A DNA stretch of 64,000 nt from the NCBI RefSeq assembly GCF_001484685.1, contig NZ_CP012200.1:428321-492320 (forward strand). The letters are read 5' to 3'. Made by a program: the position numbers and the translations under genes. Below are positions 8,395-23,228 of this stretch, piece by piece; position 1 is the first letter of the stretch, and each line of letters starts with the position of its first letter. Source of the stretch: Thermococcus sp. 2319x1 (lineage in GTDB: Archaea > Methanobacteriota_B > Thermococci > Thermococcales > Thermococcaceae). Under the pieces are notes generated by a model. That model worked only from the letters and a program-made list of their open reading frames with translations. It ran no database searches and was not told where the DNA came from.

Positions 8395-8500
8395 TTGAGA
8401 ATTCGGGCTGATTTGGTGGAGTTTGCGAAGAATAACGGCATTAACATGCCTCAATTGCTTGAAGAAGCCCTTCTAAATATTTATCTTCAGAATAGTTCTT
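8395..8500 (+). pseudogene. Remnant of an SSV-type integrase N-terminal part, left copy
   Basis: The frame encodes RADLVEFAKNNGINMPQLL, resembling the right-hand copy at 22807-22900 (VRVDLVEFVRKEGIKMSQLL). It then runs in frame through the tRNA-His repeat (FLGPGPGFEPGLGDPQ) into the C-terminal integrase part. It lacks a promoter and a plausible start, so its 5' end is truncated. In SSV-type elements the N-terminal segment, the tRNA-derived attachment site and the C-terminal segment are contiguous only in the free circle, so finding them joined here suggests a second, older integration at this site. Confidence 0.55.
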
Positions 8501-8547
8501 TTCTGGGGCCGGGGCCGGGATTTGAACCCGGGCTAGGGGATCCACAG
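8501..8547. repeat. Left attachment-site repeat (3' part of tRNA-His)
   Basis: 47 bp identical to 23148-23194: it runs from ttctggggcc through the T-arm and acceptor strand of tRNA-His to gatccacag in the anticodon loop, in the same orientation. The copies diverge immediately outside (cctgag here, tcccct in the intact tRNA). This is the att core expected when an element integrates by recombination at the 3' half of a tRNA gene. Confidence 0.85.
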
Positions 8548-9260
8548 CCTGAGAGAGCTTTATTCGTCAAAAGAAGGTCGGAAATGACAGAAAAATTTGG
8601 AGAACAAAACGTCGCCATGCCAACATTTGTACATAACGAGCGGACGACAACCAGTACATAATAACAAAAAGACACCTTGACATTCTTTTACTCGAACTAA
8701 AGGCCAACAACGTTGCAGGATACCATCTAAAGTTCGTGAACCGTGTGGTCCATAAATTCCTGGACAAAACAGCCCAACACGGTGATTAATGGTCGTTCAC
8801 GGTTGAAAATCTGATTTCACACCTCCAGGAGCTTCAGAAGCAGTATTCGCCCTCGATGTACCGTAAGCACATCACGTATCTCAAAAAGCTCTTTAGAATC
8901 GCCAACATTCCGCTTGAGCACAACCTCAAGAGCCCGAGATACGTTGGAGTGGACATGACGGCCATCACCGTGCAGGACGTTCAAACCCTCCTAAAGATAA
9001 TACACAGGGTTCAATTCGCGAAAAGGGAAGAAGTCTCACGAAGAATCGCCAACAAACTCGCCCTGGGCCTCTTAATAATGGCGACGAGCGGTCTTAGAGT
9101 GTATGAGCTCACTAAGTTGCCACTTTCATATATCGACTTGGACAAGAGACTTATCAGGGTGCCCCCAAGCGTCGCCAAGACGGGCCAGCCAAGGGTAACG
9201 TTTATAACAAAGGAAGTTCGGAGTCTGCTCAAGCAGCATCATAAACCACCCGCCCCATGA
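8548..9260 (+). pseudogene. int: SSV-type tyrosine integrase, C-terminal part, decayed
   Basis: Pieces of one integrase: from 8548 to about 8643 the frame gives MTEKFGEQNVAMPTFVHNER; after a frameshift it continues in another frame from about 8643 with KRHLDILLLELKANNVAGY, hits an in-frame TAA near 8784 after KTAQHGD, and resumes with WSFTVENLISHLQELQ to 9260. The core-binding domain and the first catalytic Arg box (ATSGLRVYEL) are present. The HxxR box, the second Arg and the Tyr nucleophile are missing, because the gene is cut after RSLLKQ near 9240. At least three inactivating changes make self-mobility unlikely. Confidence 0.85.
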
Positions 9261-9265
9261 TGAAG

Positions 9266-9376
9266 TTATATTTCCTTTAGGAGATTTGCTAAGAACATTC
9301 CGTCGTTGATTTCATTCTCAGCTAAAAACGCAATGTAAAACGAGCTGTCTCCCACCACAGACTCCCTTCGACTCAT
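9266..9376 (-). pseudogene. Truncated PIN-domain (VapC-like) toxin fragment
   Basis: 36 residues starting MSRRESVVGDSSFYIAFLAE. The first strand with an acidic residue followed by SSF is typical of PIN nucleases, which are usually about 130-150 residues. The frame stops at 9266, immediately beside the truncated end of the integrase on the opposite strand, so one deletion probably removed the 3' ends of both genes. The start overlaps the stop of the upstream gene by ATGA (9373-9376), typical of toxin-antitoxin pairs. Non-functional as it stands. Confidence 0.6.
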
Positions 9377-9995
9377 ATTATCCACCTTGCACTCTTTGCT
9401 CTTTGGAGGAGGGCCGCCTTCATGTCTTCGGTTATTATGCCCTTCCTGACAAGGCGATTAACGATACTCTCGGCATTTTTCAAGACATCGCGAGATAACT
9501 CAGATTTAATCGAATACTCCTTGTTGGTCTCGTCAGTATAAAGCAGGAAAAGGAGTTCGTCCCACGAAAGCTTAGTGTAAAGCGGAACTATAAGCTCAAC
9601 GGCGGAGAGAATGGCGAGAGCATCCTTGTCTTCCTAGGCTTTCTTTTCAACCCTTCAATAAGCTTTCCATAAACCCTTTTACCCTTATCTGTAATTACGA
9701 GGTATCCACCTTTGGCCTTCTCAGCTTTTGACTTGTTTCTCGGGGGACGGTATTCCCAGCAGTCCACAACGTAAAGGGGATTTTTTATCGCATCGTCCAG
9801 ATCATCAGAGAACGGCCCTTTCAGATGGGGCACGAACTCCACAAGCCGTCTTACCTCCGGGTGGAACTTCCAGAGGAAAAAGAATATCTTCTGCAGGTGG
9901 AGAACGCTAATCTCGCCACCAGCCTTCCCCAGGATAAGCAAGATGAGGTATTCGATGGTTTTGAGATCATTCTCGTCGTGAAACTCCTGGGACAT
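9373..9995 (-). pseudogene. Antitoxin-like partner of the PIN fragment, frameshifted
   Basis: ATG 9995 opens a frame (TIEYLILLILGKAGGEISVL, LHLQKIFFFLWKF, GPFSDDLDDAI) that ends early at 9588. From about 9635 another frame continues without stops, EDKDALAILSAVELIVPLYT, then KLSWDELLFLLYTDETN to KSARWII and TGA at 9373. Joined, the protein would be about 207 residues. The shift lies near 9630-9640 and needs a one-base change. The N-terminal part looks like a winged-helix/Panacea-like regulatory domain, but I do not recognise the family firmly. Overlap with the PIN start suggests a toxin-antitoxin operon. TATA-like aaatttaaat lies near 10052-10043. Confidence 0.6.
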
Positions 9996-10103
9996 CCCTC
10001 CACCCGCACCAACGGCACATTAAGACAATCGCTCAATCTCTGATTTAAATTTTTTGAAAGTTACTGAAGCAATGCATCAGTGTCACAAGACCGTAAGCAT
10101 GCT

Positions 10104-10556
10104 TCAGATTCCTGTCCTCTTCAAGATCTCCCTGTACTCGCCCTCTTTGATGTATCTTCCAGAGACCGCGATGAACCTCTTCGGCTTGACGATTTTCGGG
10201 TACTTCCGTATATTCTTCAGCTTCACTACCATCCACGGCCTTGGCCTTCTTCCCCTTGAGTGCCACTTTGCCCTGTCGCGCTCGTATTTCCTGAGCTCCT
10301 CGGGGGTGAGGAAGAGCTCTTCCCTGTATTTTTTAATAATCTCCTCAACGTTCGTGAAGTGCTCGACGCTCTCGACCTCCGCCTCGCCATGCCAGCCCTG
10401 ATCCTCGTGGGAAGCGTAAAAGACCAGCTTCATGCCCGGTTTGAGCCTAAGCGTCGAGGGCTTGACGAAGACGGTCTTTCCCTCGTCGAGTATCCTTCCC
10501 AAAAGCGGTTTCGGAACTGGAAAGGTTGCACCGATGGCATCTTCACTCGTTGTCAT
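10104..10556 (-). CDS. DUF365 protein (PUA/ASCH-like fold)
   Basis: 150 residues. TFPVPKPLLGRILDEGKTVF, VKPSTLRLKPGMKLVFYAS and the helix after GEAEVESVEHFTN match archaeal DUF365 proteins, small PUA-like RNA- or nucleobase-binding proteins. The start at 10556 follows GGTGAAAAACG, and a TATA-like ctaataagg lies further upstream. It is transcribed away from the defence operon inside the element. Function unknown; by fold it may bind a modified base, as EVE/ASCH proteins do (inference). Confidence 0.65.
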   Translation of the reverse strand: MTTSEDAIGATFPVPKPLLGRILDEGKTVFVKPSTLRLKPGMKLVFYASHEDQGWHGEAEVESVEHFTNVEEIIKKYREELFLTPEELRKYERDRAKWHSRGRRPRPWMVVKLKNIRKYPKIVKPKRFIAVSGRYIKEGEYREILKRTGI

Positions 10557-10646
10557 CGTTTTTCACCGAAGGTACTTCACTCTTGATCCTTATTAGATTT
10601 ACTGTCCAAATTAGTCGTAACGCTAAAAAGACGCGGGAGGAGATGA

Positions 10647-11222
10647 GTTGGGGTTTGCCACAGTGGGACAGGGGACCTCATAATCGCCATTGACAAAGAA
10701 GTTTCAGCCGTTGCGATAGTAAGTGTGTCGCACCAATACCTCGATAAAGTCACGGACGAGTTCTCTGAAATCAAACACATAAAAGAGATGGAGGACGACA
10801 GGGATAGATACCTGAAGGAATACTTTAAACCCCTTCTGGAAAAAGTCCGGGACAAGTATCCCATTGAGATCAGGAATTACCTCAAGGTCGACCATTACTT
10901 CTGGGAGGACCTTGAATATCTCTCCAAGTGGGGACTCGAACTCATCGTGGACGACGGCCTGTGGACGGCCGTAAAGGACAGGTTCGGGGGCACTCAAATA
11001 TCACTTGTTAAGGAGGGTGAGATAAGAAAGCGCATTCGAGAGCTCAAGAAAAGATTCAGAGAAGCAAAGCGGAGGAAAGACACCTTAGAAGAAGATGAAA
11101 TCATGAGAGAGCTAAAAATCGAGAGAAGAAGACGCATCTTAATAATGATCGCCGATAATTACCTCCACTTGAAAAATCGTGGTATTGGTCCCATACGTGG
11201 GCAGAAGAACAAAAAACATTAA
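10647..11222 (+). CDS. Unrecognised charged helical protein, start uncertain
   Basis: The unambiguous part (GTG 10725 to 11222) encodes 165 residues, rich in Lys/Glu/Arg, with a long helical C-terminus (residues 95-145) and no recognised domain. The frame is open upstream to 10647 and gives a plausible hydrophobic strand (GDLIIAIDKEVSAVAIVSV), but with no start codon there. An ATG at 10643 with GGGAGGAG before it opens a different frame (MSWGLPQWDRG) that would join after a one-base shift near 10670. Either the gene is frameshifted or it begins at 10725. It lies between the DUF365 gene and the defence operon. Confidence 0.45.
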   Translation, partial: VGVCHSGTGDLIIAIDKEVSAVAIVSVSHQYLDKVTDEFSEIKHIKEMEDDRDRYLKEYFKPLLEKVRDKYPIEIRNYLKVDHYFWEDLEYLSKWGLELIVDDGLWTAVKDRFGGTQISLVKEGEIRKRIRELKKRFREAKRRKDTLEEDEIMRELKIERRRRILIMIADNYLHLKNRGIGPIRGQKNKKH

Positions 11223-11406
11223 AAGCGACAGAAACCGCCTGCTCCACCGCCCCTTCATACCCCATTCCGGGGTCGTGGCGGGGAACGGGCGAGAGATTCT
11301 CGTTAACGTTGCTGTCTCCACTCTTCCTTAGTGTGAATCCCCTAATAACGGTTTCGTCTGTGACCACATCTGGGGGCGTTATCCGATGTATCGCCCATCA
11401 TCAAAA

Positions 11407-11415
11407 GGTATTTAT
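11407..11415 (+). promoter_or_regulatory. TATA-like promoter element of the methylase operon
   Basis: aaaaggtatttatcg (TATA core at 11407-11415) lies about 36-44 nt before the ATG at 11451, placing a transcription start near 11435. The region 11223-11400 between the previous gene and this promoter holds no gene I can support. Confidence 0.55.
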
Positions 11416-11450
11416 CGCATGCCGTGTTAAACATCAAGGGTGTGAACAAC

Positions 11451-14400
11451 ATGGAGAGGAGATTCATCGAAAGCCCCCGGTTTCCAATCTGGGAGGTCAA
11501 TGAAAAGAGCCTCAAAGAGAAGGGCCCGGCAAGGCCGCCGTACTGGGAGATGGTCTTTTACTGGACAAGAAAGCCCCTCATCGGAGCGAGGGCCGTTATC
11601 GCCGGTGCACTCCTGCCGGAGGAGATTGACGAGAACCGCTTTAAAACTCTCATAGGCTTAAATGAAAAGACTCCCCACCACCTCAACCCCAAGATTCCGG
11701 CCGAATGGGAGAAGTACTTCAGGGACAAGAGGCTCCTCGACCCCTTCGCAGGCTTTGGCTCAATACCGCTCGAAGGGCTTCGCCTTGGATTGGACGTTAC
11801 GGCCGTCGAGCTGTTGCCCACAACTTACGTCTTCCTCAAGGCCGTTCTTGAGTATCCGAAGAAGTTCGGAAAGCCCCTCGTGAAGGACGTCGAGAGATGG
11901 GGCAACTGGATTACCGAGCAACTCAAAAACGACCCCGAAATCAGGGAGCTTTACGATGATGACGTTGCCGTTTACATCGGCACCTGGGAGGTGAAATGCC
12001 CCCACTGTGGCAGGTGGACTCCGGCGATTGGCAACTACTGGCTCGCAAGAGTCAAGGATTCTAGCGGCTACAATAGGCTGGCCTACATGGTGCCCGAAAG
12101 GAACGATGAGGAAGTCGAGATAAGGGTGGTTGACCTCAACGAGGTCTTCGGCGACGTCTCGAAGGCCAAGGTGGACACGAAGGCTGAGGAGATTGTCTTT
12201 GAAGGCGAGGAGTTCGTTGAGAGGGCCCAGAAAGCCGTCAGGGAAGGAAAGCTGAAGGAGAAGGACTTCAGGGTCGAGGGCGAGAGGGTGATATTCAAGG
12301 TTCCCCACGCTAACATCGAGGCAAGGAAGAGTCAGCTCACCTGTTTGGCGTGCGGCAACGTGATTAAGTACGCCGATGAGGAGGGTAGGCACTACACCGA
12401 GAGGAGGAAAGGCAACAACGAGTTCTACGTGAAGTTCGCCCTGAGGAAGTACCACGAGGGCAATGAGAGGTTTGCAAGGCAGAGGCTCCTCGTGAAGGTG
12501 AAAGTCAAGGACGGGGACTTAGTCTTCGAGCCCGCCAGCAGAGAGGACAACGAGAGGCTCTGGAGGGCGAAGGAGAAGGTCAAGGAGATGCTCGAGGGAA
12601 ATGATCCAGACGTGCCGACTGAACAGATACCCCTTTATGACTCAAGAAATATCTGGGTCATTGCCTATGGTTTCCATAGATGGTTCCACCTTTTCAACCC
12701 CCGCCAGCTCCTCACGCTGGTTAAGATTGTGAGGCTCATCCGCGAGGTGGGAAAGAAGGTCGAGGAGGAGAAGCTCAAGGAAGGCTGGGACGAGGAGAGG
12801 GCCTTCGAGTACGCGGAGGTGGTGGCGACGTACTTGAGTATGGCGATGTTGAAGTATGCAAACTACAGCTCTGTGGTTACAGTATGGAATCCATCTTTAA
12901 TTATGGGCCATACATTGTCAATGAGAGGTATTGCTATGACTTGGAATTATTTCGAGGTACCTCCGTATGCGAGGTGGACCGGCTCATGGAGACAAGGAAT
13001 CGAGCACACAATTTCAAGATCTCTTAAGTATCTCACCACCGCCCTCGCTTCCTCTTCCCAGAAGACCCTCACTGACTTCACGAAGACGAATTCTGTAAAA
13101 GTTCTCCAGGGCGATGCGACCTCTCTCAACCTCGGCGAGAAGTTCGACGTGATTGTAACCGACCCGCCTTATGCCGACGATGTCCCGTACACCGAGCTGA
13201 GCGATTTTTACTACGTCTGGCTCAAGCGCGCTTTGAGCGACTCCGACGGGAGGAAGCTCGTCCCAAGATTCCACAGGAGCGCGTTCTTCAAGAAAATCGG
13301 CCCCAAGTGGGTTGAGATAAAGACGCAGTGGGAGGAGTTCGCTAAAAAAGAAGTCTCAACCAACCCCGGCCGCTTCATGGACGACGAGAACAAGAAGGAG
13401 AAAGCCGTCCAGCACTTCGAAAACCTCTTTAGCCAAGCATTCGTTGCGATGAGGGAGCACCTCAAGGACGACGGAATCATCGTTACCTACTACGCCCACA
13501 CCGACCCGGAGAGCTGGGCGAACCTCATCGAGGCCGGCTGGAAGAGGGCGAAGCTCCAGATAACGAGGGCGATTCCAATCGGCACGGAATCAACGACGAG
13601 CATCGTGAGCAGGGGCAAGCTCAGCCTCGACACCTCGATTGTGGCGGTCTGGAGAAAAACCGATGGAGAGAGGAAGCAGGTTCAAATCTCCGTCCTCAGG
13701 AGTGAGATGGAGAGAAAAGCTAAGGACTCCGCCAGGGAGTTCATCAGGTACGGTTACGCCGGCCTCGACCTGCTCTACGGCGTTATGGCTGCTGTGCTTG
13801 AAGAGGTGACGAAGTACTCTGAAGTCCTCTCGCCCAGGGGCCCGCTCCCGACGAAGGAACTCCTCAACGATTACGTTTACCCTGCAACGATAAGGGGCAT
13901 CATCGAGGCCATCGCGGAAATTGAGGAGGGGCAGACGATAACCTCGAACGAGGCGGTCTTTTACACCGCTTACAAGGTGCTTTTCGGCAACAAGACCCTC
14001 AAGCCCAACGACATAATCCTCCTAAACCTCGCGACCTTCACCGATTCCAGCGGTCTCATAAAGGCGGGAGTGTTAAAGGAGAAGGGCTCGGCCAGCAAGA
14101 AGGAGTTCACACTCTACAGCGTTGACCTCCTCGGAAAGAAGGCCCTCGATGCCAAGGAGCTCCAGAAGTTCCTTTACGAGAAGGGCATCAACCCGCTTGA
14201 GCCAGAGCCGAGGAACGCGATTGACGTCCTCCAGCTCCTTGAGTACCATGCATTACTTGGAAAATCCCGCCTTGAGGAGGCCAGCGAAAGGCTCAGGAGG
14301 AAGTGGAGCGCAGAGGTTGAGGAGGCCCTCGCGATTGCGAGGCTCGTGAGCGAGTATTACACCGCCGTTTACGGCCAGCTCCTGGCCCCGCTGGGTGGCA

Positions 14401-14510
14401 GGATAAAGGCCGATGAGCGTGATATTGAGAAGGAACTCGAAAAGGACGGCCACTTTGAGGTTCTCCTCATGAGGAGGCTCCTCAGGAGTATTGGGGGTGG
14501 AATATTATGA
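11451..14510 (+). CDS. DUF1156 adenine-type DNA methylase
   Basis: 1019 residues from ATG 11451, preceded by AGGGTG; the 9 extra upstream residues of the longer frame were rejected. The SAM-binding motif DPFAGFG is at about residues 97-103 and the catalytic DPPY at 571-574, an amino-methyltransferase pattern. Two CxxC pairs (CPHCG near 183, CLACG near 298) suggest a zinc ribbon inserted between the motifs. The N-terminal block (PIWEVNEKSLKEKGPARPPYW) is the DUF1156 signature. The methyl target is unknown. It overlaps the DUF499 gene by 4 bp (ATGA), so translation is coupled. The G+C-rich codon use differs from the host flanks. Inferred role: self-DNA marking in a defence system. Confidence 0.9.
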   Translation: MERRFIESPRFPIWEVNEKSLKEKGPARPPYWEMVFYWTRKPLIGARAVIAGALLPEEIDENRFKTLIGLNEKTPHHLNPKIPAEWEKYFRDKRLLDPFAGFGSIPLEGLRLGLDVTAVELLPTTYVFLKAVLEYPKKFGKPLVKDVERWGNWITEQLKNDPEIRELYDDDVAVYIGTWEVKCPHCGRWTPAIGNYWLARVKDSSGYNRLAYMVPERNDEEVEIRVVDLNEVFGDVSKAKVDTKAEEIVFEGEEFVERAQKAVREGKLKEKDFRVEGERVIFKVPHANIEARKSQLTCLACGNVIKYADEEGRHYTERRKGNNEFYVKFALRKYHEGNERFARQRLLVKVKVKDGDLVFEPASREDNERLWRAKEKVKEMLEGNDPDVPTEQIPLYDSRNIWVIAYGFHRWFHLFNPRQLLTLVKIVRLIREVGKKVEEEKLKEGWDEERAFEYAEVVATYLSMAMLKYANYSSVVTVWNPSLIMGHTLSMRGIAMTWNYFEVPPYARWTGSWRQGIEHTISRSLKYLTTALASSSQKTLTDFTKTNSVKVLQGDATSLNLGEKFDVIVTDPPYADDVPYTELSDFYYVWLKRALSDSDGRKLVPRFHRSAFFKKIGPKWVEIKTQWEEFAKKEVSTNPGRFMDDENKKEKAVQHFENLFSQAFVAMREHLKDDGIIVTYYAHTDPESWANLIEAGWKRAKLQITRAIPIGTESTTSIVSRGKLSLDTSIVAVWRKTDGERKQVQISVLRSEMERKAKDSAREFIRYGYAGLDLLYGVMAAVLEEVTKYSEVLSPRGPLPTKELLNDYVYPATIRGIIEAIAEIEEGQTITSNEAVFYTAYKVLFGNKTLKPNDIILLNLATFTDSSGLIKAGVLKEKGSASKKEFTLYSVDLLGKKALDAKELQKFLYEKGINPLEPEPRNAIDVLQLLEYHALLGKSRLEEASERLRRKWSAEVEEALAIARLVSEYYTAVYGQLLAPLGGRIKADERDIEKELEKDGHFEVLLMRRLLRSIGGGIL

Positions 14511-17500
14511 GGCTCGGTTCCTTTGAGGTCTGGGACGACGTGATGGATGAGGCCCTCGACAAGCAGGTGGCCCCGGAGCTTGGGGACGTTGTGAGCGGAA
14601 ACGCCCCTGAGATATACACCGACTCAAGGGAGTTCTTCAGGAGGACTTACTTCACGGACTCGATGCTCGAAATCATCGGCAAGCTCGTCAAGACCCTCGA
14701 AGGTGGCGAGAGGCACAACATATTCCTCATTTACTCCCTCTTCGGCGGTGGTAAGACCCACACGCTCCTCACCCTTTACCATGCCTTCAAAGAGCCGGAT
14801 GCGATGCTTGACCCTGAGGTTCTGGCCGGCCACGACCCTGAGAAGAGGGAGAAAATCAGAGGTCTGGCGGAGAGGATAAAGGCCCTTGGCGGTGTTAAAA
14901 TCGTCCCAGTTTACGGCAAGGGCAGGCTCGGCCAGCCGAGCAAGCCCCTTGAGGTCGGGCCGTACAGGGTGAGAACCGTCTGGGGTTACATCGCCCACGC
15001 CCTCGGGAGGTATTACATCGTCGAGAGAGACGACGAGAATGCCACGGTTCCGGAGATTGACACCCTGAGGGAGCTCTTCAGGGGAGAGAGGGTTATTCTC
15101 CTCGTTGATGAGATCGTGGATTACTTCGACAACCTTTACAATTCCGGAAGTGAGGACGACAGGCGCTATGCCAAAAACGTGGACAACTTCTTTGACAGGC
15201 TTTCCACGGCCCTGCTCGGCTCCGGAAGCGCGATGGTCATGACGCTCCCGATGGAGAAGAAGGAGGGCATGTTCGAGGTCGAGAAGGAGTACAACAGGGA
15301 GGTCGTCATGGCCATCTGGGGCGCCGTCAGCAGGGTCGGCGGTTCCGAGCTTTACTCCCCGCTGAGGACTTCTGGAGCGGGCAACGAGCTCGTTGAGGTT
15401 CTCAAAAAGAGGATTTTCAAGGGAATTAACGACGAAGAGAGGGTTAAGACCCTGACCAGAATGCGCTCGGAGCTCAGCAACACCGACGTCTTCGGTCATG
15501 CGCACAACCTTGAGGACGAGCTCCGGAGGAGTTACCCGTTCCACCCGGAGTACGTGGACGTCCTCAGAACGATAATCGAGAGGACCGGCTTACAGAGAAC
15601 GAGAGACATGCTCAGGATCACGAGAATCGTTGTGAGGGAGCTTGTCAAAAATTACCTTGAGACTGGCTTTGCTCCTTCGATGGTAATGCCCCACCACATC
15701 AACCTCAGGAACGAGAAGATAAGGGGCATGCTGTTCGGCAAGAGCGAGACCTTCATGGACTACGCTACCATCGTCGATACCGACCTTGAGGGGGACAAGT
15801 TCAAGGACTTCACCAACCCGGGACTCGCGGAGATAATTCTCAAGTACGTTTTCCTCAAAACGTATCCCTTCGACTCGCCCGTTCCCCTGCCCGGTTTCCC
15901 AACGGCCGATTCAATCGCGAGGGGCGTTTACGAGCCGAACGAGTTTGACGCCAACAGGTGGCTCCCAACGGACATTGGGGATACGGTTGAGGAGATAACC
16001 GCGAGCGTCCGCTTTGTTTATCTCAACAAGAAGGATAATGTCCTTTGGTTCTGGCGCGTTGCCAACGTGGCCCAGATGGTGGACAGCAAGGCCAAGGAGC
16101 TCCTCGAAATGAGGCCCGGTGAGGTGTGGAACAGGCTCGTCGAGTACGTGAACAGGATGGTCAGGGAGAGAAAGAGCCTCACCTCAACGAGAGGAAAGGG
16201 GGCGAAGATTGAGGACCACGTGACGTTCTTTAAGGAGCAGTACATCATCGTGGCGAAGGACCCGCAGGAATTCCACGACACTCCTGATTACAAGCTCCAG
16301 GTGCTCGTGAGGGACGACGTTGATGAGAGAACCCTGAGGAAGCTGATTTACGCTTATGGAACCGGTACGAGGACGTACAGGAACACGGTCGTCGTCTGTT
16401 ATCCGGTCGAGGGGAGCTTTAAGCCTCTCCTTGAGACGACGGCGAGGATAATGGCGTGCGATGAGGTCACCAGGGACATCGAGGTCAAATACGGCAAGTT
16501 CGGCGAGGAAGTCGTCAAGATACAGATGAACATGGTGAAGGACATCAGGAGCAAGGCCCTCGAAGACCTTGAGGCCCAGATTGTGAACTCCTTCAGGCAG
16601 GTGGCCTATCCGGAGGATGACGGGGTCCGCGTCACCAAGGCCCCGTCCAGCTCAAAGTCGGTCGTTGAGAACGTGTACTCCGCCCTTCTCAGCAAGGGCA
16701 AAATCGTGGATGAGTTCGACTTTGACTGGCTCGTGGAGCTTCTCAGGGACGTCGGTGTGGAAGTTCTGAGGCCCGAAGGTTACAGGGTCTCGGAGCTCAT
16801 TGCCATAATAAGGATGAACACCCGCCTGCCGATGATTGAGGACAGCCGCATTAGTGAGGCCATAAAGAACGCCGTTCTCGACTTGAGAATTGGCCTTGAA
16901 CGTGATGGGGAAGTGTTCTTCAAGAAGGTTTACAATGAGGTTCCAAGCTCTGAAGAGGAGGGTAATCCACCCAGTGCCGTTAAGCCAATGGATCTAATCC
17001 TGCCGAGGGAAGTCGCCCTCCACAAACAGGTCTGCAATCTGCTGAAGAAGGAAAAGGATTTAATCGTGCCCAGAGGGGACAGGGATTTCCGGGTGAAGAC
17101 CTGGTATGAGGTTTATTCGCCGTCATCGGACATTGGGATCCCGCTGAGGAGTCTTGTAACCGGCGAAGAAGACTGCAGGGTAAAGGACGAGTATCTCGAC
17201 ATGGTTCTTTGGGGGCACATTGTTGAGAAGAGGGAGGAGACCCCAATAACGGAGGGTGAGTTTGAGATTGAGGTTGAGATGCCTCAGGTGAAGGAAAAGC
17301 CAGGGAAGCCGGTTCAGCTCGAGGTAAGGGTCGTGCCCCTCGGAAGAGACTCTTTCACGGTGGAGCTCTCGGTGAACCATGGAGAGCTCGACTCTTACGA
17401 GGTTAAGCTTGAAGACGGAAAACCTGTTGAGGTTACTTGGACAATAATCATGCCAGAGACGAGGACAATCGCAACGATTGAAGGGCGGAGCCCCAAGAGA

Positions 17501-17893
17501 ACGCATTACAGGGACGTGAGTTTAATTCCTGACCTCGGCACGGAAATCGTTGAAACTGACACCCTCAAAGAGGAGCACAAGGGCATGTTCCTGACTTCAA
17601 TCCTCGACATTGAGGACGTTGATACGCTTGGCCTCATCCCCGAGAACGTTAAGGGCATCGTAAGCGGAAGCCTGAGGATTGACAGGCCGCTGTGGGAGGG
17701 CCGCTTTGAGGGCGTGGACAGGGAAGTGCTGGCTTATCTCCTCAGGGAGATGAAAGAGCTCTTCGAAGGAAAGGCAGTCCTTAAAGCAGACCTCAGCCTC
17801 TTAGAGGAAGTAATGATTGATGACCTCCTCTTCGAAAAGCTCAGGCCCCTCAATGGAAAGGTTCGGTTCAGGCTCAGGAAGGAGGAGGATTGA
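14507..17893 (+). CDS. DUF499 AAA-like ATPase of the defence operon
   Basis: 1128 residues. Walker A GGGKTH is at about 80-85 and Walker B LLVDEIVDY near 198-206. This is the DUF499 ATPase family that accompanies DUF1156 methylases in predicted antiviral loci. YPFHPEYVDVLRT (near 345) and the stretch GLQRTRDMLRI are further family hallmarks. The C-terminal third is a beta-rich, Glu/Lys-rich region of unknown role. It is coupled to the methylase by ATGA and to the next gene by a GGAGGAGG ribosome site inside its own end. Likely an NTP-driven motor or switch acting with the helicase (inference). Confidence 0.88.
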   Translation: MRLGSFEVWDDVMDEALDKQVAPELGDVVSGNAPEIYTDSREFFRRTYFTDSMLEIIGKLVKTLEGGERHNIFLIYSLFGGGKTHTLLTLYHAFKEPDAMLDPEVLAGHDPEKREKIRGLAERIKALGGVKIVPVYGKGRLGQPSKPLEVGPYRVRTVWGYIAHALGRYYIVERDDENATVPEIDTLRELFRGERVILLVDEIVDYFDNLYNSGSEDDRRYAKNVDNFFDRLSTALLGSGSAMVMTLPMEKKEGMFEVEKEYNREVVMAIWGAVSRVGGSELYSPLRTSGAGNELVEVLKKRIFKGINDEERVKTLTRMRSELSNTDVFGHAHNLEDELRRSYPFHPEYVDVLRTIIERTGLQRTRDMLRITRIVVRELVKNYLETGFAPSMVMPHHINLRNEKIRGMLFGKSETFMDYATIVDTDLEGDKFKDFTNPGLAEIILKYVFLKTYPFDSPVPLPGFPTADSIARGVYEPNEFDANRWLPTDIGDTVEEITASVRFVYLNKKDNVLWFWRVANVAQMVDSKAKELLEMRPGEVWNRLVEYVNRMVRERKSLTSTRGKGAKIEDHVTFFKEQYIIVAKDPQEFHDTPDYKLQVLVRDDVDERTLRKLIYAYGTGTRTYRNTVVVCYPVEGSFKPLLETTARIMACDEVTRDIEVKYGKFGEEVVKIQMNMVKDIRSKALEDLEAQIVNSFRQVAYPEDDGVRVTKAPSSSKSVVENVYSALLSKGKIVDEFDFDWLVELLRDVGVEVLRPEGYRVSELIAIIRMNTRLPMIEDSRISEAIKNAVLDLRIGLERDGEVFFKKVYNEVPSSEEEGNPPSAVKPMDLILPREVALHKQVCNLLKKEKDLIVPRGDRDFRVKTWYEVYSPSSDIGIPLRSLVTGEEDCRVKDEYLDMVLWGHIVEKREETPITEGEFEIEVEMPQVKEKPGKPVQLEVRVVPLGRDSFTVELSVNHGELDSYEVKLEDGKPVEVTWTIIMPETRTIATIEGRSPKRTHYRDVSLIPDLGTEIVETDTLKEEHKGMFLTSILDIEDVDTLGLIPENVKGIVSGSLRIDRPLWEGRFEGVDREVLAYLLREMKELFEGKAVLKADLSLLEEVMIDDLLFEKLRPLNGKVRFRLRKEED

Positions 17894-17894
17894 G

Positions 17895-18425
17895 GTGGAG
17901 GGCAGCGTCGAGTACCAGGTTAATCTCAGGTACATCAAGAAGGCCTTCCTCCCGGTAACGCGGGAGCAAAAGCTTGCCGAGTTCGTACCGGTTTTCAACG
18001 TTATGGGCACTGGAGAGCAGAAAAAGGTCCCGGGAAAAGTTGAGGCGAGGGCGAGGGTATACCTACCCGAATTTCTCAATTTTGGCAAGAAGCTGGGATT
18101 TAAGGTCGAAGCGGAAGAGAATCTCCTCAAGTGGCTGACCCTGCCTCCGTCAAAAAGAGAAAGGCTGGAGTACAGCGGGAACAAGAGGATAATCCTGAGG
18201 ACAAACGATGATTACGCTTATCTCCGCCTGATGGTTTACGGCGTCGTTATGAGTGTTCTTAAGACGCCGGCGGAATGGGGGCCGCTTGAGGAATACGTGC
18301 TCTCGATGGAGCCGATACAGCTCCGTTTTTGGTCTTCGAAGTTTAAAAATACTTACTGGAAGTACAAGAACCGGAGGAAGCTTGATTACCTCGCAAGACG
18401 CTTCTTGGAGGTGGAGTGGATTTGA
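17895..18425 (+). CDS. Unrecognised 176-aa component of the defence operon
   Basis: The start is set at GTG 17895, seven bases after GGAGG; this lies 1 bp past the DUF499 stop, and the longer frame that starts inside DUF499 is not needed. The protein begins VEGSVEYQVNLRYIKKAFLP and is basic with mixed alpha/beta character, ending WKYKNRRKLDYLARRFLEVE. I do not recognise a domain, and no catalytic motif stands out. Its stop overlaps the helicase start (TGATG), so it is co-translated. Position suggests an adaptor between ATPase and helicase, or a DNA-binding subunit (inference). Confidence 0.8.
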   Translation: MEGSVEYQVNLRYIKKAFLPVTREQKLAEFVPVFNVMGTGEQKKVPGKVEARARVYLPEFLNFGKKLGFKVEAEENLLKWLTLPPSKRERLEYSGNKRIILRTNDDYAYLRLMVYGVVMSVLKTPAEWGPLEEYVLSMEPIQLRFWSSKFKNTYWKYKNRRKLDYLARRFLEVEWI

Positions 18426-21421
18426 TGGAGGATGTTGGGGGGGCCGTCTTGAGGGATGTCCTCCTCCACAGTCCTGCACTGTTTTACACCGCTTTGACTG
18501 CTCCGGCCAGGAGACCAATAACCCCATTCAAGCATCAGTTCCAGCCCCTTTACCATGCTATGATCACCCGGCCGGTGAGAATACTGATCGCCGATGAGAT
18601 CGGGCTTGGAAAGACCGTCCAGGCGCTTGCAATTGCGAGGTATCTCCAGCTGAGGGGCGAGGCCAGGAGAATTCTTGTCCTCGTGCCGAAGATTCTCCGC
18701 GAGCATTGGAAGCAGGAGATAAGAAGGGTTGGAGGCTTCCCAACCGTAATCGAGAACGGTCACGAGGTCGAGAGCAAGCTGAGAAACACGTACGGTTATA
18801 CTGTCGTCTCAATTGATCTTGCCAAGAGGTCCCCCCATCGCGAGAGGTTCCTCGATATTAAGTGGGACTTGATAATCGTTGATGAGGTTCACAACGTTAC
18901 CCTCGGCACCCAGAGGTACGAGTTCCTTAGGGCCCTTGTTGAGAAGGGCGGAGAGGACCTCAACCTGATTTTCCTTTCAGCGACGCCCCACAGGGGCAAT
19001 CCCAAGGATTATCTCGCAAGGATTGCCCTCCTTGACCCGACCCTTACCGATCAGTACCAGAAACTTGACAAGCCCAGTTTTTACAGTAAAACTCAGGATA
19101 CGCTCGTCATGAGAAGGACCAAAAAGGTCGTCAACGAGCTTGAGGGTAGGGAGGTCTTCAAGAAGTGTTATTTTGGGGCAGTTGTCGTTGAGATAAGCGA
19201 CGCTGAAAGGGCCTTTTTCGATAAGCTCGATAAAGCGCTCTTCGAGATGATAAAAGGTGCCAGGGAGGACTCTCCGGAGGCCCTTCTCGCGGTTCTTGTC
19301 AGGAAGAGGGCTTCATCGAGTTATGAGGCGGCAGTAAAGACAATCAGTAAGATTGCTGAGAGTACAAACTCTGAAGGGAGCGGGAAGGCAGAAAAGGTTA
19401 GCAAATACATTAAAAGTCTCTTTGGCCTCGGTTATGATGAGATTGAGCTGGAGGACTTCAACGAGCTTGACGATGCCGTTGAGAAGATAATCGAGGAGTA
19501 TTCTCCCCTGCTCGACAGAAAACAGGTCGAATCATTCAGGGAACTTCTTGAATTAGCAAAGCAAATCAAAGAGAGGGACAGTAAGCTCCAAATGGTGGCG
19601 GAGATTGCCGCGTATCACATCAAGCAAGGGGAGAAGGTGATAATCTTCACGGAGTTCAAGGACACGCTGGAATACATAAAGCGAAAGCTTCCCAAGATTC
19701 TGGCCGACGAGTACGGCGTTAGATTGGAAGGCCGTGAGATTTCCCTCCTTTACGGGGGAATGTCGAGCAGAGAAGTGGAAGAACAGATGGCCCGATTTGA
19801 GCGGCATGGGAAGCTCTTGATATCAACTGACGTTGCCTCCGAGGGTTTGAACCTTCAGATTGCCAGCGTTGTCATAAATTACGAGGCTCCCTGGAGTCCG
19901 ATAAAGCTTGAACAGAGGGTCGGGAGGATATGGAGGCTCAGTCAGCCAAGGGAGACAACCGCTTACACCCTGTTCCTGGCGGCAGAGACAGACCTCTACG
20001 TTCTGGAGAACCTTTACCAAAAGATTATGAACATAACTGAAGCCATTGGGAGTGGTCCGCGCCTTGGCAAACCTGTTTTCGGAAAACAAATGTTCTCTGG
20101 GGATTTCGAGGTACTGTGGAAGGAAGAAGCCTCCGAAGAGGGTGCCAAGGGAGAACAGCCTTCCGAGTACGACCTTGTGATTGCGTCAATAAGGAGGGAA
20201 CTTACAGGTTACGCGGGGGCCATAATACACACTCTAAAGAGTCTCCGACAGAACATTGAGAAAATGGTTCCCTCTGATACGGCAAAGCAGGTTCAGGAGG
20301 AGCTTGAGCATATACTCACTCCGAGAGACTTTGACAGGGAGGCGGTCTCAGAAGTGCTGAGGACTTATCTCACTGAGGTTCTTGGCAAGAGGAACATTCC
20401 CGAAATTTCCCCGATTCTCCATGATGTCGTTAAGGAAGGCCCCTCAAGCCTAATGCCAATGAAGATTGGTGTTAAGGGCAGGGATGGTGTTGAATACCTT
20501 TATTTTGTAAGGTTGGTTGATGAGGAAGATGGTCGGGAGTTCCATCGTTATCCCGTCCTCGTGAGGAGGAACGGTGGAAAGCTTGAGTTCCTTTATGGCG
20601 TTGACCTGTTGAAGCGCCTTATTGAGGTGTTCTCGCAGGATTTCGTTGTTATTGGCCGGCCCGAACCCACCATGGAAGAGAATTTAATATCTTCCCAGCT
20701 CAGGACGCTCGCAAGGGATGGGTTTTATAGGCCCAGGACAAAGTACAGAAATTACGAGCTGGTATTTTCAAAGGGCAAACTGAAGAAGGGGCGCCTCTTC
20801 AAGAACACGAAAATTGAAACAACTGAAGTGTTGAGGATCGAGGGCATCAGCGAGGAGAGGTTCAACATACTAAAGTACGTTCCAAGTGGTATTCTCGACG
20901 TTTATGGGCTCTCGGAGAAAGACGTGGAACCGCCCACCGATGAATACAGGCGCATCACCGAGAGGAACTTCGTGCCCCTGGAGGATATCCTGAAGAGCGA
21001 ACGGAAGGCAATGGAGATCGTCATGGAGCTTGAGCGGAAAAGGTTGGAAAAGAAATATGGCCCCGGTGGAGGCTGGGAAGTCAAAGACGTCTCATTGAAG
21101 GAACATTATGACATCAAGGTCGTTGAGCCGAATGGAGAGAGGTACATTGAGGTTAAGGGCCACAAGCCACTCCTGCTTACTGCAGAGGTCACGCCCGCGG
21201 AGTATGAATTCGCGACGGACTCCAAAAACGTTGATAAGTACTGGATTTATATCGTCGCAAACCTCGGAAAGAAAAAGCCGGTCATATTGAAGGTTTTCAG
21301 GCCTTTTGAGAGGGATGCCAGGGTTTATGCGGTCCTCGAAGACGGGAAGGAAGTCGAGATTACCGGAAAGGTCAGCATCAACATTAAGAACAAGATTCGA
21401 AAGGTGCTCTCGGTGGAGTAA
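18425..21421 (+). CDS. SNF2-like helicase with C-terminal DUF3883 domain
   Basis: 998 residues from ATG 18425 (GTG at 18416 is an alternative). Superfamily 2 motifs: GLGKT (about 60-64), DEVH (153-156), SATPHRG, TDVASEGLNLQ and QRVGRIWR (about 497-504). The C-terminal 100 residues show the DUF3883 pattern with D(I)KV, then IEVKG near 908-912, the acidic-x-Lys spacing seen in PD-(D/E)xK-like nucleases, so this subunit could both translocate and cut; nuclease activity is inference. It is the last gene of the four-gene operon, followed by about 240 bp of AT-rich sequence. Confidence 0.9.
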   Translation: MEDVGGAVLRDVLLHSPALFYTALTAPARRPITPFKHQFQPLYHAMITRPVRILIADEIGLGKTVQALAIARYLQLRGEARRILVLVPKILREHWKQEIRRVGGFPTVIENGHEVESKLRNTYGYTVVSIDLAKRSPHRERFLDIKWDLIIVDEVHNVTLGTQRYEFLRALVEKGGEDLNLIFLSATPHRGNPKDYLARIALLDPTLTDQYQKLDKPSFYSKTQDTLVMRRTKKVVNELEGREVFKKCYFGAVVVEISDAERAFFDKLDKALFEMIKGAREDSPEALLAVLVRKRASSSYEAAVKTISKIAESTNSEGSGKAEKVSKYIKSLFGLGYDEIELEDFNELDDAVEKIIEEYSPLLDRKQVESFRELLELAKQIKERDSKLQMVAEIAAYHIKQGEKVIIFTEFKDTLEYIKRKLPKILADEYGVRLEGREISLLYGGMSSREVEEQMARFERHGKLLISTDVASEGLNLQIASVVINYEAPWSPIKLEQRVGRIWRLSQPRETTAYTLFLAAETDLYVLENLYQKIMNITEAIGSGPRLGKPVFGKQMFSGDFEVLWKEEASEEGAKGEQPSEYDLVIASIRRELTGYAGAIIHTLKSLRQNIEKMVPSDTAKQVQEELEHILTPRDFDREAVSEVLRTYLTEVLGKRNIPEISPILHDVVKEGPSSLMPMKIGVKGRDGVEYLYFVRLVDEEDGREFHRYPVLVRRNGGKLEFLYGVDLLKRLIEVFSQDFVVIGRPEPTMEENLISSQLRTLARDGFYRPRTKYRNYELVFSKGKLKKGRLFKNTKIETTEVLRIEGISEERFNILKYVPSGILDVYGLSEKDVEPPTDEYRRITERNFVPLEDILKSERKAMEIVMELERKRLEKKYGPGGGWEVKDVSLKEHYDIKVVEPNGERYIEVKGHKPLLLTAEVTPAEYEFATDSKNVDKYWIYIVANLGKKKPVILKVFRPFERDARVYAVLEDGKEVEITGKVSINIKNKIRKVLSVE

Positions 21422-21623
21422 TTTACTGCGTCTCTTTTATTCCTAATTTCTGTCTCAAAATTCCAAGCGGTTTTATAAAAACGTCTGAATTTTTGAGACT
21501 TTGAGACCATCAGGGGAAACGTGACCTTTTAGATTACTCGAGCATTCATAAATTCGTGTGATTGTGTCATGAGTATCTTCGATAAAAAGTGAATAATATC
21601 TTGGCATTTAACGAATCAAAAAG

Positions 21624-21633
21624 GTTATTTATT
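21624..21633 (+). promoter_or_regulatory. TATA-like element before the small membrane-protein pair
   Basis: aaaaaggttatttattcc, with TATA core gttatttatt, lies about 32-41 nt before the ATG at 21665, giving a very short leader. It sits in an AT-rich 243-bp gap after the helicase gene, so the pair seems separately transcribed. Confidence 0.55.
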
Positions 21634-21664
21634 CCAGGATTGTAAACCATACTGGTGGGTTTAG

Positions 21665-21928
21665 ATGGACCTTGGAAAGGCGGTTTTCGCTTTTATTGGG
21701 CTTGGGATAACACTGTTTTTGACACTTAGTGTCCCGAGTATTGAACAGGTAATTTACGATGCTTTCACACCCCTTGTATTTCAAGCTTCTCAAGAAATTC
21801 AGGCATACGACTGGTCAACTGCATTTCTCATCAAAGCAACTTGGATTCTTGTGGGAGTGTCCGTGATTATTTCGATTGTAACTCCAATAATGGATGCACT
21901 TATGGAGCTTATATCTTCGCTGAGGTGA
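21665..21928 (+). CDS. Small two-helix membrane protein A
   Basis: 87 residues with two hydrophobic helices (about 7-28 and 58-80) separated by a short polar loop (EIQAYDWSTAF). The start follows GGTGGGTTTAG. The next gene begins 1-4 bp after its stop. No family is recognised. Small two-helix proteins occur as structural proteins of archaeal spindle-shaped viruses and also as membrane effectors in defence loci; the sequence does not decide between these. Confidence 0.7.
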   Translation: MDLGKAVFAFIGLGITLFLTLSVPSIEQVIYDAFTPLVFQASQEIQAYDWSTAFLIKATWILVGVSVIISIVTPIMDALMELISSLR

Positions 21929-21932
21929 TATG

Positions 21933-22211
21933 ATGGATGCCCTGGAACCCCTGGAACAACTTGCTGAGACCTTTGAGGTACTGAGTAAGATGCTTCTTGA
22001 AATGGCCCTTCCAAGCGCACAGTTCATAATGGCACTGACTTTTTATAGTCTTATATTATATATCGGGAACATCTTAGGAGTGACTTCCGATACTCCAATT
22101 TACGGTATGACTGTGATGGATCTCTCCGATGCCCTTTGGGTTGGGATTAGCTTATTGGGACTTGCAGGTACATTATCTGCGTTGAGGCATCTGGAAGAGC
22201 TTCCATTCTAA
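21933..22211 (+). CDS. Small two-helix membrane protein B
   Basis: 92-93 residues (ATG at 21930 or 21933, after GAGGTGAT). Two hydrophobic segments lie at about 22-47 and 65-85. The N-terminal 20 residues are acidic and helical ([18 protein letters not shown]). It is tightly coupled to protein A, so the two probably work together. No family is recognised. The promoter of the EVE gene starts right at its stop codon. Confidence 0.68.
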
Positions 22212-22216
22212 TGACA

Positions 22217-22228
22217 ACTTATTTATCC
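22217..22228 (+). promoter_or_regulatory. TATA-like promoter of the EVE-domain gene
   Basis: aacttatttatcc lies just after the stop of the preceding gene and 25-36 nt before the ATG at 22253. This both supports a separate transcript and rejects the longer reading that would start at 22211. Confidence 0.55.
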
Positions 22229-22252
22229 TTTTTCTCTGGTTGGGTGAGTGGA

Positions 22253-22684
22253 ATGAAGTACTGGCTCTGCATCACCAACCGTGACAACTGGGAGGTTGTC
22301 AAAAAGAGGAACGTCTGGGGAGTCGCGAAGAGGCATAAAAACATCATTGCCAAGGTCAAGCCCGGGGATAAGCTCGTCATTTACGTGAAACAGGAGCGTG
22401 AGAACAAGGAAGTTCTCGAACCGAAGATTGTCGGCATCTTCGAGGTCGTGAGCGAGCCTTACACCGACTCAAGCAGAATCTTCAAGAGCCCACCACACCT
22501 CAATGAGACGTACCCGCTGAGGGTCAAGATCAAGCCAGTGAAGCTTGGTGAGCTGGACTTCAAGCCCCTCATTCCAAAGCTGGAGTTCATTACCAATAAG
22601 AAGCGCTGGAGCGGGCATTTAATGGGCAAGGCGATGAGAGAAATCCCAGAAGAGGATTACAGGTTGATTGAAAGCCTTCTTTGA
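22253..22684 (+). CDS. EVE-domain protein (PUA-like)
   Basis: 143 residues starting [20 protein letters not shown], then [10 protein letters not shown] and [12 protein letters not shown], the standard EVE-domain layout. EVE domains belong to the PUA superfamily; several bind modified cytosines and are fused to or sit near modification-dependent restriction enzymes. ATG 22253 follows GGGTGAGTGGA. Placed two genes downstream of a DNA-methylase operon, it may read modified bases on host or invader DNA (inference). Confidence 0.85.
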
Positions 22685-22762
22685 GTTGTCTCAATTTCTC
22701 TTCCAACTTTTTAAGGTGGCTTTTCCCTCTTTTTGGTATTGGGCTGTGGGGCCAAATGCGTG

Positions 22763-22780
22763 TAAATACACGTGTATTTA
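22763..22780. promoter_or_regulatory. Perfect 18-bp palindrome over a TATA box (operator candidate)
   Basis: TAAATACACGTGTATTTA is a perfect palindrome, extending to 24 bp (22760-22783) with one mismatched pair. Its right half overlaps a TATA-like gtatttata just before the integrase N-terminal remnant. This is the expected form of an operator repressing the integrase promoter. The binding protein is unknown. Confidence 0.55.
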
Positions 22781-22806
22781 TACAGGTGATGCGCAGAAGG
22801 GGGCAC

Positions 22807-22925
22807 CAAAGTGGAAGGTTACGCCGTTGGTCAGGGTGGATTTGGTTGAGTTTGTAAGGAAAGAGGGCATCAAAATGTCTCAATTGCTTGAAAAAGCTTC
22901 ACCAAAAGAACTCCCTTCCTGCTGA
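22807..22925 (+). pseudogene. int: SSV-type integrase N-terminal part, right copy
   Basis: The frame reads KWKVTPLVRVDLVEFVRKEG then IKMSQLLEKA, like the left copy, and stops at 22925. It is oriented toward the tRNA, as required for the N-terminal half of a split integrase. No start codon fits this frame: a GTG at 22814 is off by one base. The expected run-in to the attachment site (present in the left copy as NSSFLGPGPG) is separated from it by about 240 bp without a gene. So this copy is also damaged. Confidence 0.55.
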
Positions 22926-23147
22926 ACTGGCAGGGGATCAAGCGTGCACTCCAAACTTGCCTATGAAAACGGGTTTAACATTAAACCGGGACTTTTTGTG
23001 AGTTCCACTTTTATTCTTCTCCCCTCGGACGCCTTGTTGAGAGTGGAACACTGTAAAACCGCCAGTTAAAGAGTAAACCACTTGAAAACAGGCACCTTCA
23101 GAAGGGCACGCCTTCTTTCCGTCAACGCTTTGCGGAGCAAAGGGTTG
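22926..23147. other. Gene-free stretch between integrase remnant and tRNA-His
   Basis: No convincing coding frame. It holds two short hairpins: GAAGG/CCTTC at 23101-23115 and CTTTGC-gga-GCAAAG at 23128-23142, the latter directly before the attachment core. Compared with the left copy this looks like an insertion or replacement within the integrase N-terminal segment. Confidence 0.4.
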
Positions 23148-23194
23148 TTCTGGGGCCGGGGCCGGGATTTGAACCCGGGCTAGGGGATCCACAG
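23148..23194. repeat. Right attachment-site repeat inside tRNA-His
   Basis: 47 bp identical to 8501-8547, covering three bases beyond the CCA end, the acceptor and T-arm, and up to the anticodon loop of tRNA-His. The element therefore supplies the tRNA 3' half and keeps the gene intact. Confidence 0.85.
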
Positions 23195-23228
23195 TCCCCT
23201 GTGCTAACCAGGCTACACCACCCCGGCC
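23151..23228 (-). tRNA. tRNA-His (anticodon GTG)
   Basis: The reverse strand folds as a cloverleaf: acceptor GCCGGGG/CCCCGGC, anticodon stem GGGGA/TCCCC with loop CTGTGGA (anticodon GTG), T-stem CCGGG/CCCGG with loop TTCAAAT. An extra 5' G (23228) facing C73 is the G-1 hallmark of tRNA-His. The CCA end is encoded (23151-23153). It is the integration target of the element. Confidence 0.96.

Follow-up and report, generated by a model that had tools for sequence, protein, structure and literature searches.

Four large genes in direct contact in Thermococcus sp. 2319x1 raise the question of what kind of system they encode, and what the third of them, labelled unknown in a sequence-only reading, contributes to it. 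The window analysed here, a 64,000-nucleotide stretch of DNA, belongs to a complete 1.96-Mb genome, and the four reading frames are all open and co-oriented on its plus strand, from 11451 to 21421:

11451-14510, plus strand: putative DUF1156 N6-adenine DNA methyltransferase (COG1743 / BR-MTase; PF06634, PADLOC and motifs)
14507-17893, plus strand: DUF499 AAA+ ATPase, ORC/Cdc6- and BrxC-like (PF04465, invariant motifs and tree)
17895-18425, plus strand: P3, a 176-aa fourth subunit with a predicted alpha+beta fold (conserved position, AF2 model and hhalign to DUF7680)
18425-21421, plus strand: SNF2/RapA-like helicase with a C-terminal NOV_C (DUF3883) PD-(D/E)XK domain (Pfam, invariant motifs and C-terminal model)

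The contacts reported in the sequence-only reading are confirmed: ATGA joins methylase and DUF499 genes at 14507-14510, a single base separates the DUF499 stop from the P3 start, and TGATG at 18423-18427 forms the P3/helicase junction. The genes are also as intact as that reading held, with uninterrupted frames and intact catalytic motifs, and its assignment of a DUF1156/DUF499/helicase set to an antiviral type of locus agrees with passages in which such loci are treated as predicted or BREX-related defence (PMC8565338, PMC7641849, PMC12839542). Three points go beyond this first reading: the third gene encodes a conserved additional (fourth) subunit, a tRNA-His island carries the operon, and no published subtype fits. 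Our data suggest that the locus is likely a mobile antiviral system of restriction-modification-like design that forms an archaeal subtype within the DUF499-centred BREX-related (BR) systems, with defence as its predicted function; for relatives, passages of PMC12839542 and PMC7641849 give that role as predicted or tested.

For the methylase, we favour the start at ATG 11451 over an in-frame GTG at 11424, a possible alternative, because a TATA-like stretch, GGTATTTATC, can be read at about 11408-11417, some 35 bp 5' of that ATG. The protein matches DUF1156 (PF06634, 6.6e-09, 36.2 bits against a cut-off of 24), PADLOC MTase_II (PDLC03352, 1482 bits) and also PADLOC HmaB (1.1e-51), and carries motif I (DPFAGFG) at residue 97, CxxC pairs at residues 183 and 298, and DPPY at 571, the last of which points to N6-adenine as the putative target base. 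A hypervariable block at about residues 361-560, just before DPPY, is only 27-75% identical among near-identical copies of the operon, across which P3 and the helicase are about 85-100% identical per block. Since it is mainly this recognition block that varies among such copies, the methylase is probably the specificity subunit. In BREX, both modification and defence take their specificity from the methylase (PMC11842806, PMC11341690), and from this precedent together with the variable block we infer that target choice by the complete complex lies with the methylase. Near-identical natural operons, distinguished by little more than one methylase block, amount to ready-made swaps, which makes specificity testable in an order with genetically tractable members.

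The ATPase matches PF04465 at 1138 bits over 1014 residues (112-1125; cut-off 23) and contains an invariant Walker A (FGGGKTH) and Walker B (LLVDE). No HEPN match was found in this protein, and PADLOC HmaC is its top match in that collection (6.1e-42). In one relative (L055:7598-11017), the C-terminal part of DUF499 is replaced at about residues 881-1080, where the worst blocks are 27-40% identical compared with 87-100% elsewhere; we read this as a natural module swap.

Every SNF2 motif is present in gene 4, which matches SNF2-rel_dom (1.2e-15) and Helicase_C (3e-24), both above the Pfam cut-off, as well as NOV_C (1e-16) and PADLOC HmaA (7.9e-52). Its NOV_C motifs are HYD at 894-896 and IEVKGH at 908-913, within which D896, E909 and K911 are invariant. 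A model of the C-terminal half reached a pLDDT of about 90 across much of the last 140 residues, with lower values before them, and a PDB search with it placed archaeal Hjc resolvases (PD-(D/E)XK) on top, with a best E of 0.02, low TM and modest probabilities (0.66-0.96 for the first 17 entries). The proposal that cutting lies in the helicase C-terminus is supported by the invariant NOV_C residues and is consistent with these weak fold matches. The N-terminus is short: Walker A lies at residue 50-63 in Thermococcales P3-clade helicases, and a TUDOR-sized extension is absent from this helicase, the SNF2 core starting too early for one. Pfam likewise found no N-terminal HKD/PLD nuclease on it, and there is no space for one N-terminal of the core. 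At L050:4786-7790, the helicase is encoded as two overlapping ORFs with core and nuclease halves apart, either a natural split or a frameshift.

Is P3 a true component of the system? Its mechanically assigned start at 17817 is not supported, because most relatives align from residue 24-26, that is, from about GTG 17895. When 94 genomes of the order were scanned with a DUF499 profile, 14 had a locus scoring above 790 bits and a further ten had nothing but weak loci, at roughly 90-140 bits. A separate P3 search identified P3 in exactly the 14 strong-DUF499 genomes, one of which (G068) has one strong and one weak DUF499 locus. According to gene maps, each of the 14 strong-DUF499 Thermococcales loci runs methylase, DUF499, P3, helicase, a regularity far beyond chance; additional ORFs lie between methylase and DUF499 in L060 and L061, and in L054 the P3 ORF was masked in the mechanical map by a longer reverse-strand ORF and was read separately. 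The small genes that intervene between methylase and helicase in the P3-less Thermococcales loci L066 and L068 are not P3, and one of them encodes an Endonuc_Holl nuclease.

Outside the order, a DUF499-based GTDB scan found loci in Methanocaldococcus, Methanosarcinales, Culexmicrobium and Geoglobus (L085-L088), all with P3 between DUF499 and helicase, while the more distant DUF499 matches of that scan were without P3. A P3 profile search added two strong and two weak Halobacteriota matches and matches in 23 of 398 Thermoproteota genomes; among the P3-found loci inspected, DUF499 lies just upstream in nearly all and a helicase downstream in most. The Thermoproteota loci were picked via P3, so the unbiased test of co-occurrence consists of the Thermococcales and the DUF499-scan GTDB loci only. 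In a tree of DUF499 proteins, those with P3 form a single clade (support 100/100) that includes both Methanobacteriota and Thermoproteota-side archaea, and the P3-less DUF499s sampled fall outside it.

P3 also occurs in other company. At L140:3260-6712 and L142:3868-7256, methylase, DUF499 and P3 are followed by an McrB-like AAA_5 protein and a protein with weak PD-(D/E)XK matches, in place of an SNF2 helicase, which we read as an effector swap. P3 is not tied to the SNF2 helicase, because these two proteins replace it after P3 in these loci. At L149:5020-11645, a P3-like gene is flanked by a DEAD helicase on one side and by an nSTAND-like ATPase plus coiled-coil protein on the other, without methylase or DUF499; this is possibly a different system with the same small subunit.

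P3 matched nothing in Pfam, PADLOC, NCBIfam or PHROGs. Its AF2 model (pLDDT 87.6, pTM 0.85) has a four-stranded sheet followed by a helical bundle, and a PDB fold search with the model returned no entry at E<=0.001. Haloarchaeal, cyanobacterial and Rhodococcus plasmids have mutually similar genes directly downstream of DUF499, one of which matches DUF7680 at 1e-33. On its own, P3 was not matched by PF24728 (DUF7680) in the Pfam scan. Aligned by hhalign with nine DUF7680-type sequences, the P3 profile scored 31.4 (P=2.5e-4), against a maximum of 15.9 in column shuffles (0/100 as high). With two intermediates added (L152 and L153), the probability was 86.7% and P 4.4e-6. The alignment is confined to the C-terminal helical half, and P3 appears to be a distant relative of DUF7680, a family that occupies the P3 slot in other lineages and for which our literature search found no publication using that name. 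Both intermediates are short P3/DUF7680 genes of Halobacteriota (L152:6439-6813 and L153:8699-9010), situated between DUF499 pieces and a methylase. In the tree, DUF7680-associated DUF499s form a separate clade (support 99/98).

Alternatively, this could be an ordinary type-1 BR/Hma system whose helicase has lost its TUDOR or N-terminal module to a separate gene, P3, with no new function gained. The position of P3 directly upstream of the helicase would suit such an origin, as would a helicase-nuclease of the kind found in type 1 and a core that starts about 62 residues earlier than in P3-less Thermococcales helicases (the SNF2 match begins at residue 57 here and at 119-123 in L065/L066). However, Thermococcales P3s are 142-178 aa long, whereas the TUDOR domain has about 75 residues (PMC12839542), and the modelled sheet and helical bundle have no PDB match. 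Moreover, the DUF7680-family relatives keep their place after DUF499 even in operons that continue with the methylase instead of the helicase, and the P3-bearing DUF499s stand in a clade apart from the P3-less ones. We therefore regard a split-off module as unlikely, and favour a distinct fourth subunit.

A second candidate for kinship is DUF3780, the small protein of BR type 2. P3 and DUF3780 share the gene slot directly after DUF499, and the P3 model resembles the published description of the DUF3780 fold, a four-stranded sheet plus five helices (PMC12839542). None of 11 P3s matched PF12635 (DUF3780) even at E up to 10, and PF12635 was absent from 115 genomes of the phylum. An identification of P3 as DUF3780 was rejected: hhalign gave P values of 0.14-0.38, and the combined profile score of 14.3 was reached by 2/60 shuffles. 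DUF7680 aligned with DUF3780 at a score of 22.8, with a shuffle maximum of 22.5 (0/100 as high), and with the two intermediates added 4/100 shuffles were as high. Kinship with DUF3780 is thus suggestive only, both for DUF7680 on these alignments and for P3.

P3 was also found alone in a tailed-virus contig. The IMG/VR contig IMGVR_UViG_3300034683_000568 (L095/L127) encodes a stand-alone P3 at L127:7403-7867, which is 47% identical (E 1e-47) and keeps 35/41 conserved columns, together with a terminase, a D12 N6-adenine methylase, an Hjc-like gene and an HNH gene. A P3-HNH fusion in this contig was ruled out, the HNH gene being a separate ORF in a different frame. A related viral contig, which encodes terminase, portal, capsid and prohead protease, has only a P3 remnant at its end (L128:2-253); this remnant is in frame and runs into the gene that follows. 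The viral contigs yielded no DUF499, and P3 had no match in the plasmid and phage collections. With two contigs, the viral P3 is plausibly a decoy or subunit mimic, hence a candidate anti-defence gene, and one intact gene on one viral contig gives a first hint of a virus encoding P3 alone. More speculatively, P3, DUF7680 and DUF3780 might be one fast-evolving superfamily of small post-ATPase subunits that couple the effector in DUF499 defence, with the solo P3 of tailed viruses acting as a dominant-negative decoy; we hold this broader proposal to be doubtful.

How did the operon reach this site? The system is a component of a larger island, from 8501 to 23194, whose remaining features are:

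8501-8547, strand not assigned: attL, a 47-nt copy of the tRNA-His 3' half that bounds the island on the left (exact direct repeat of 23148-23194)
8856-9260, plus strand: decayed tyrosine integrase, C-terminal fragment (Phage_integrase 4.6e-07; NCBIfam XerA_Arch 1.1e-11, far under its cut-off)
9588-9995, minus strand: DUF4065-like fragment (weak PADLOC PDC-M19A/DarG-region matches)
10104-10556, minus strand: DUF365 protein, a recurrent divergent neighbour of the methylase (PF04033, 8e-42)
21665-22211, plus strand: two short ORFs (87 and 93 aa), both hydrophobic and conserved beside the system
22211-22684, plus strand: EVE-domain protein of a modified-base reader family (PF01878, 2.4e-25)
23148-23194, strand not assigned: attR, inside the intact tRNA-His gene (23151-23227, minus strand) and right end of the island (exact repeat; empty site in G075)

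The att repeats are exact over 47 nt and spaced by 14,647 nt, giving an island of about 14.65 kb, in which an Rfam scan matched the tRNA alone. A 64-nt direct repeat, 80% identical, lies near the island ends (8405-8468 and 22834-22897) and resembles the beginning of a gene for a ribbon-helix-helix protein. The flanking gene pair is separated by about 0.9 kb in genome G075, an empty site, and by about 22 kb in G078, where the att repeat is present at both ends. A 41-nt core of the repeat recurs adjoining the system in other genera, and tRNA-His adjoins the system in five other genomes, G078 included. Several neighbours travel with the operon: a longer integrase relative (345 aa) adjoins the system in L051, DUF365 homologues lie near the methylase in L049, L051, L053, L055, L056, L057 and L059, and homologues of the hydrophobic ORFs occupy the same helicase-EVE gap in L052, L053 and L055. 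Longer homologues of the DUF4065-like fragment (221-291 aa) were seen beside the system in L051, L052, L053 and L058.

Flanking TYW3 has 65-68% nucleotide identity to loci of another genus, whereas the island genes mostly have 76-94%. Compared with G078, of the same genus, the flanks are 91-92% identical but the system has diverged, with about 45% DUF499 protein identity. From these comparisons it follows that the slot is reused by different versions and that the present one arrived recently; the island has been transferred recently between genera. An operon that travels with a mobile island, here one whose integrase has decayed, might instead be mainly a methylation/toxin-antitoxin or maintenance (addiction) module of that island, with no antiviral effect, and a passage of PMC7641849 argues that such systems behave as toxin-antitoxin units too. 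However, the variable recognition block of the methylase and the swapping of different versions in one slot fit defence, the helicase-nuclease and methyltransferase architecture is common to the antiphage BREX, DISARM and Hma families, and the solo P3 in a virus suggests conflict. We consider a mainly maintenance role quite improbable, and prefer the antiviral reading.

The EVE gene bears on which DNA would be attacked. EVE is a published partner of the COG1743-DUF499 operon in archaea according to a passage of PMC7641849, which also contains the prediction that modified DNA may be recognised. Instead of unmethylated DNA, the target could accordingly be modified foreign DNA, which the EVE protein would read in type IV-like fashion. 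An EVE homologue lies near the system in 8/13 relatives (L050, L051, L052, L053, L055, L056, L057 and L060) as it does here, but it stands outside the operon, on either side of it, and none was seen in the stretch retrieved for each of the other 5/13 (L049, L054, L058, L059 and L061). Since a dedicated methylase argues for self-marking, we give the type IV-like reading very little credence.

In the restriction-modification-like reading that we prefer, the variable block of the DUF1156 methylase would read a target site and methylate adenine there as a self mark, and the methylase would serve all components as their specificity subunit, in the manner of PglX/BrxX in BREX. Where foreign DNA is unmethylated, the DUF499 ATPase would be recruited by the complex as motor and sensor, scanning or remodelling the DNA. 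P3 may act as an adaptor between ATPase and helicase, substituting for the missing TUDOR module, a role suggested solely by its position and the absent helicase extension. The SNF2 helicase would then translocate and its C-terminal PD-(D/E)XK domain cut, with the adjoining EVE protein as an optional reader of modified bases.

Among known systems, BREX was rejected as an identity because PglZ is missing: PF08665, typical of BREX and BR type 3, was absent across the whole genome, where two controls matched. DISARM was rejected as well, since no DrmB (DUF1998) model matched among the nine proteins scanned; the helicase matches DISARM DrmD in PADLOC (4.8e-71), but its NCBIfam score, 265.8 of 610 bits, is below the cut-off. 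The mention of Hma in the sequence-only reading was right as a family resemblance. PADLOC Hma (PMC8565338) likewise comprises helicase, methylase and ATPase, and the HmaA, HmaB and HmaC models match these three proteins in one operon, HmaC alone being the best model for its protein. Hma is, however, defined by three genes, and HmaB is described as an m5C enzyme whereas DPPY here points to N6-adenine. The archaeal COG1743-DUF499-SWI2/SNF2-nuclease-EVE loci discussed in a passage of PMC7641849, which names Thermococcus, have the same genes and the EVE neighbour, but the fourth gene is not mentioned in that passage. The haloarchaeal, cyanobacterial and actinobacterial DUF499-DUF7680 operons share a small protein after DUF499, putatively homologous to the C-terminal half of P3; unlike the present operon, complete ones are ordered DUF499-DUF7680-methylase-helicase, and their DUF499s form a separate clade.

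The closest framework is the BR superfamily, whose DUF499 AAA+ ATPase, DUF1156 methyltransferase and SWI2/SNF2 helicase are all predicted here. The published DUF499 classification recognises three subtypes, with a standalone small subunit described only in type 2: type 1 has three genes with a TUDOR-SNF2-REase, type 2 has DUF3780 and an HKD helicase without TUDOR, and type 3 has PglZ (PMC12839542). Type 1 shares with our locus the DUF499 ATPase, a DUF1156 N6-methylase with a TRD insert and zinc-finger cysteines, and an SNF2 helicase with a C-terminal PD-(D/E)XK domain, but consists of three genes only and has an N-terminal TUDOR on the helicase, whereas here P3 is constant, there is no space for TUDOR, and DUF499 lies in a clade apart from the P3-less ones sampled. 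Type 2, the NCBIfam 'anti-phage-associated' set, also has a helicase without TUDOR and a small gene directly after DUF499, but its nuclease is an N-terminal HKD rather than a C-terminal PD-(D/E)XK domain, DUF3780 is not detectable in P3, and the methylase comes first in the present gene order. Because the helicase extension and PglZ are absent and P3 is constant, no published BR subtype description fits: the locus would work like a BR system, yet misses a defining feature of each subtype as described (PMC12839542). The operon is of a kind already published, and it adds to that kind an archaeal DUF499 clade with its own constant fourth subunit, a distinct variant that goes beyond published descriptions.
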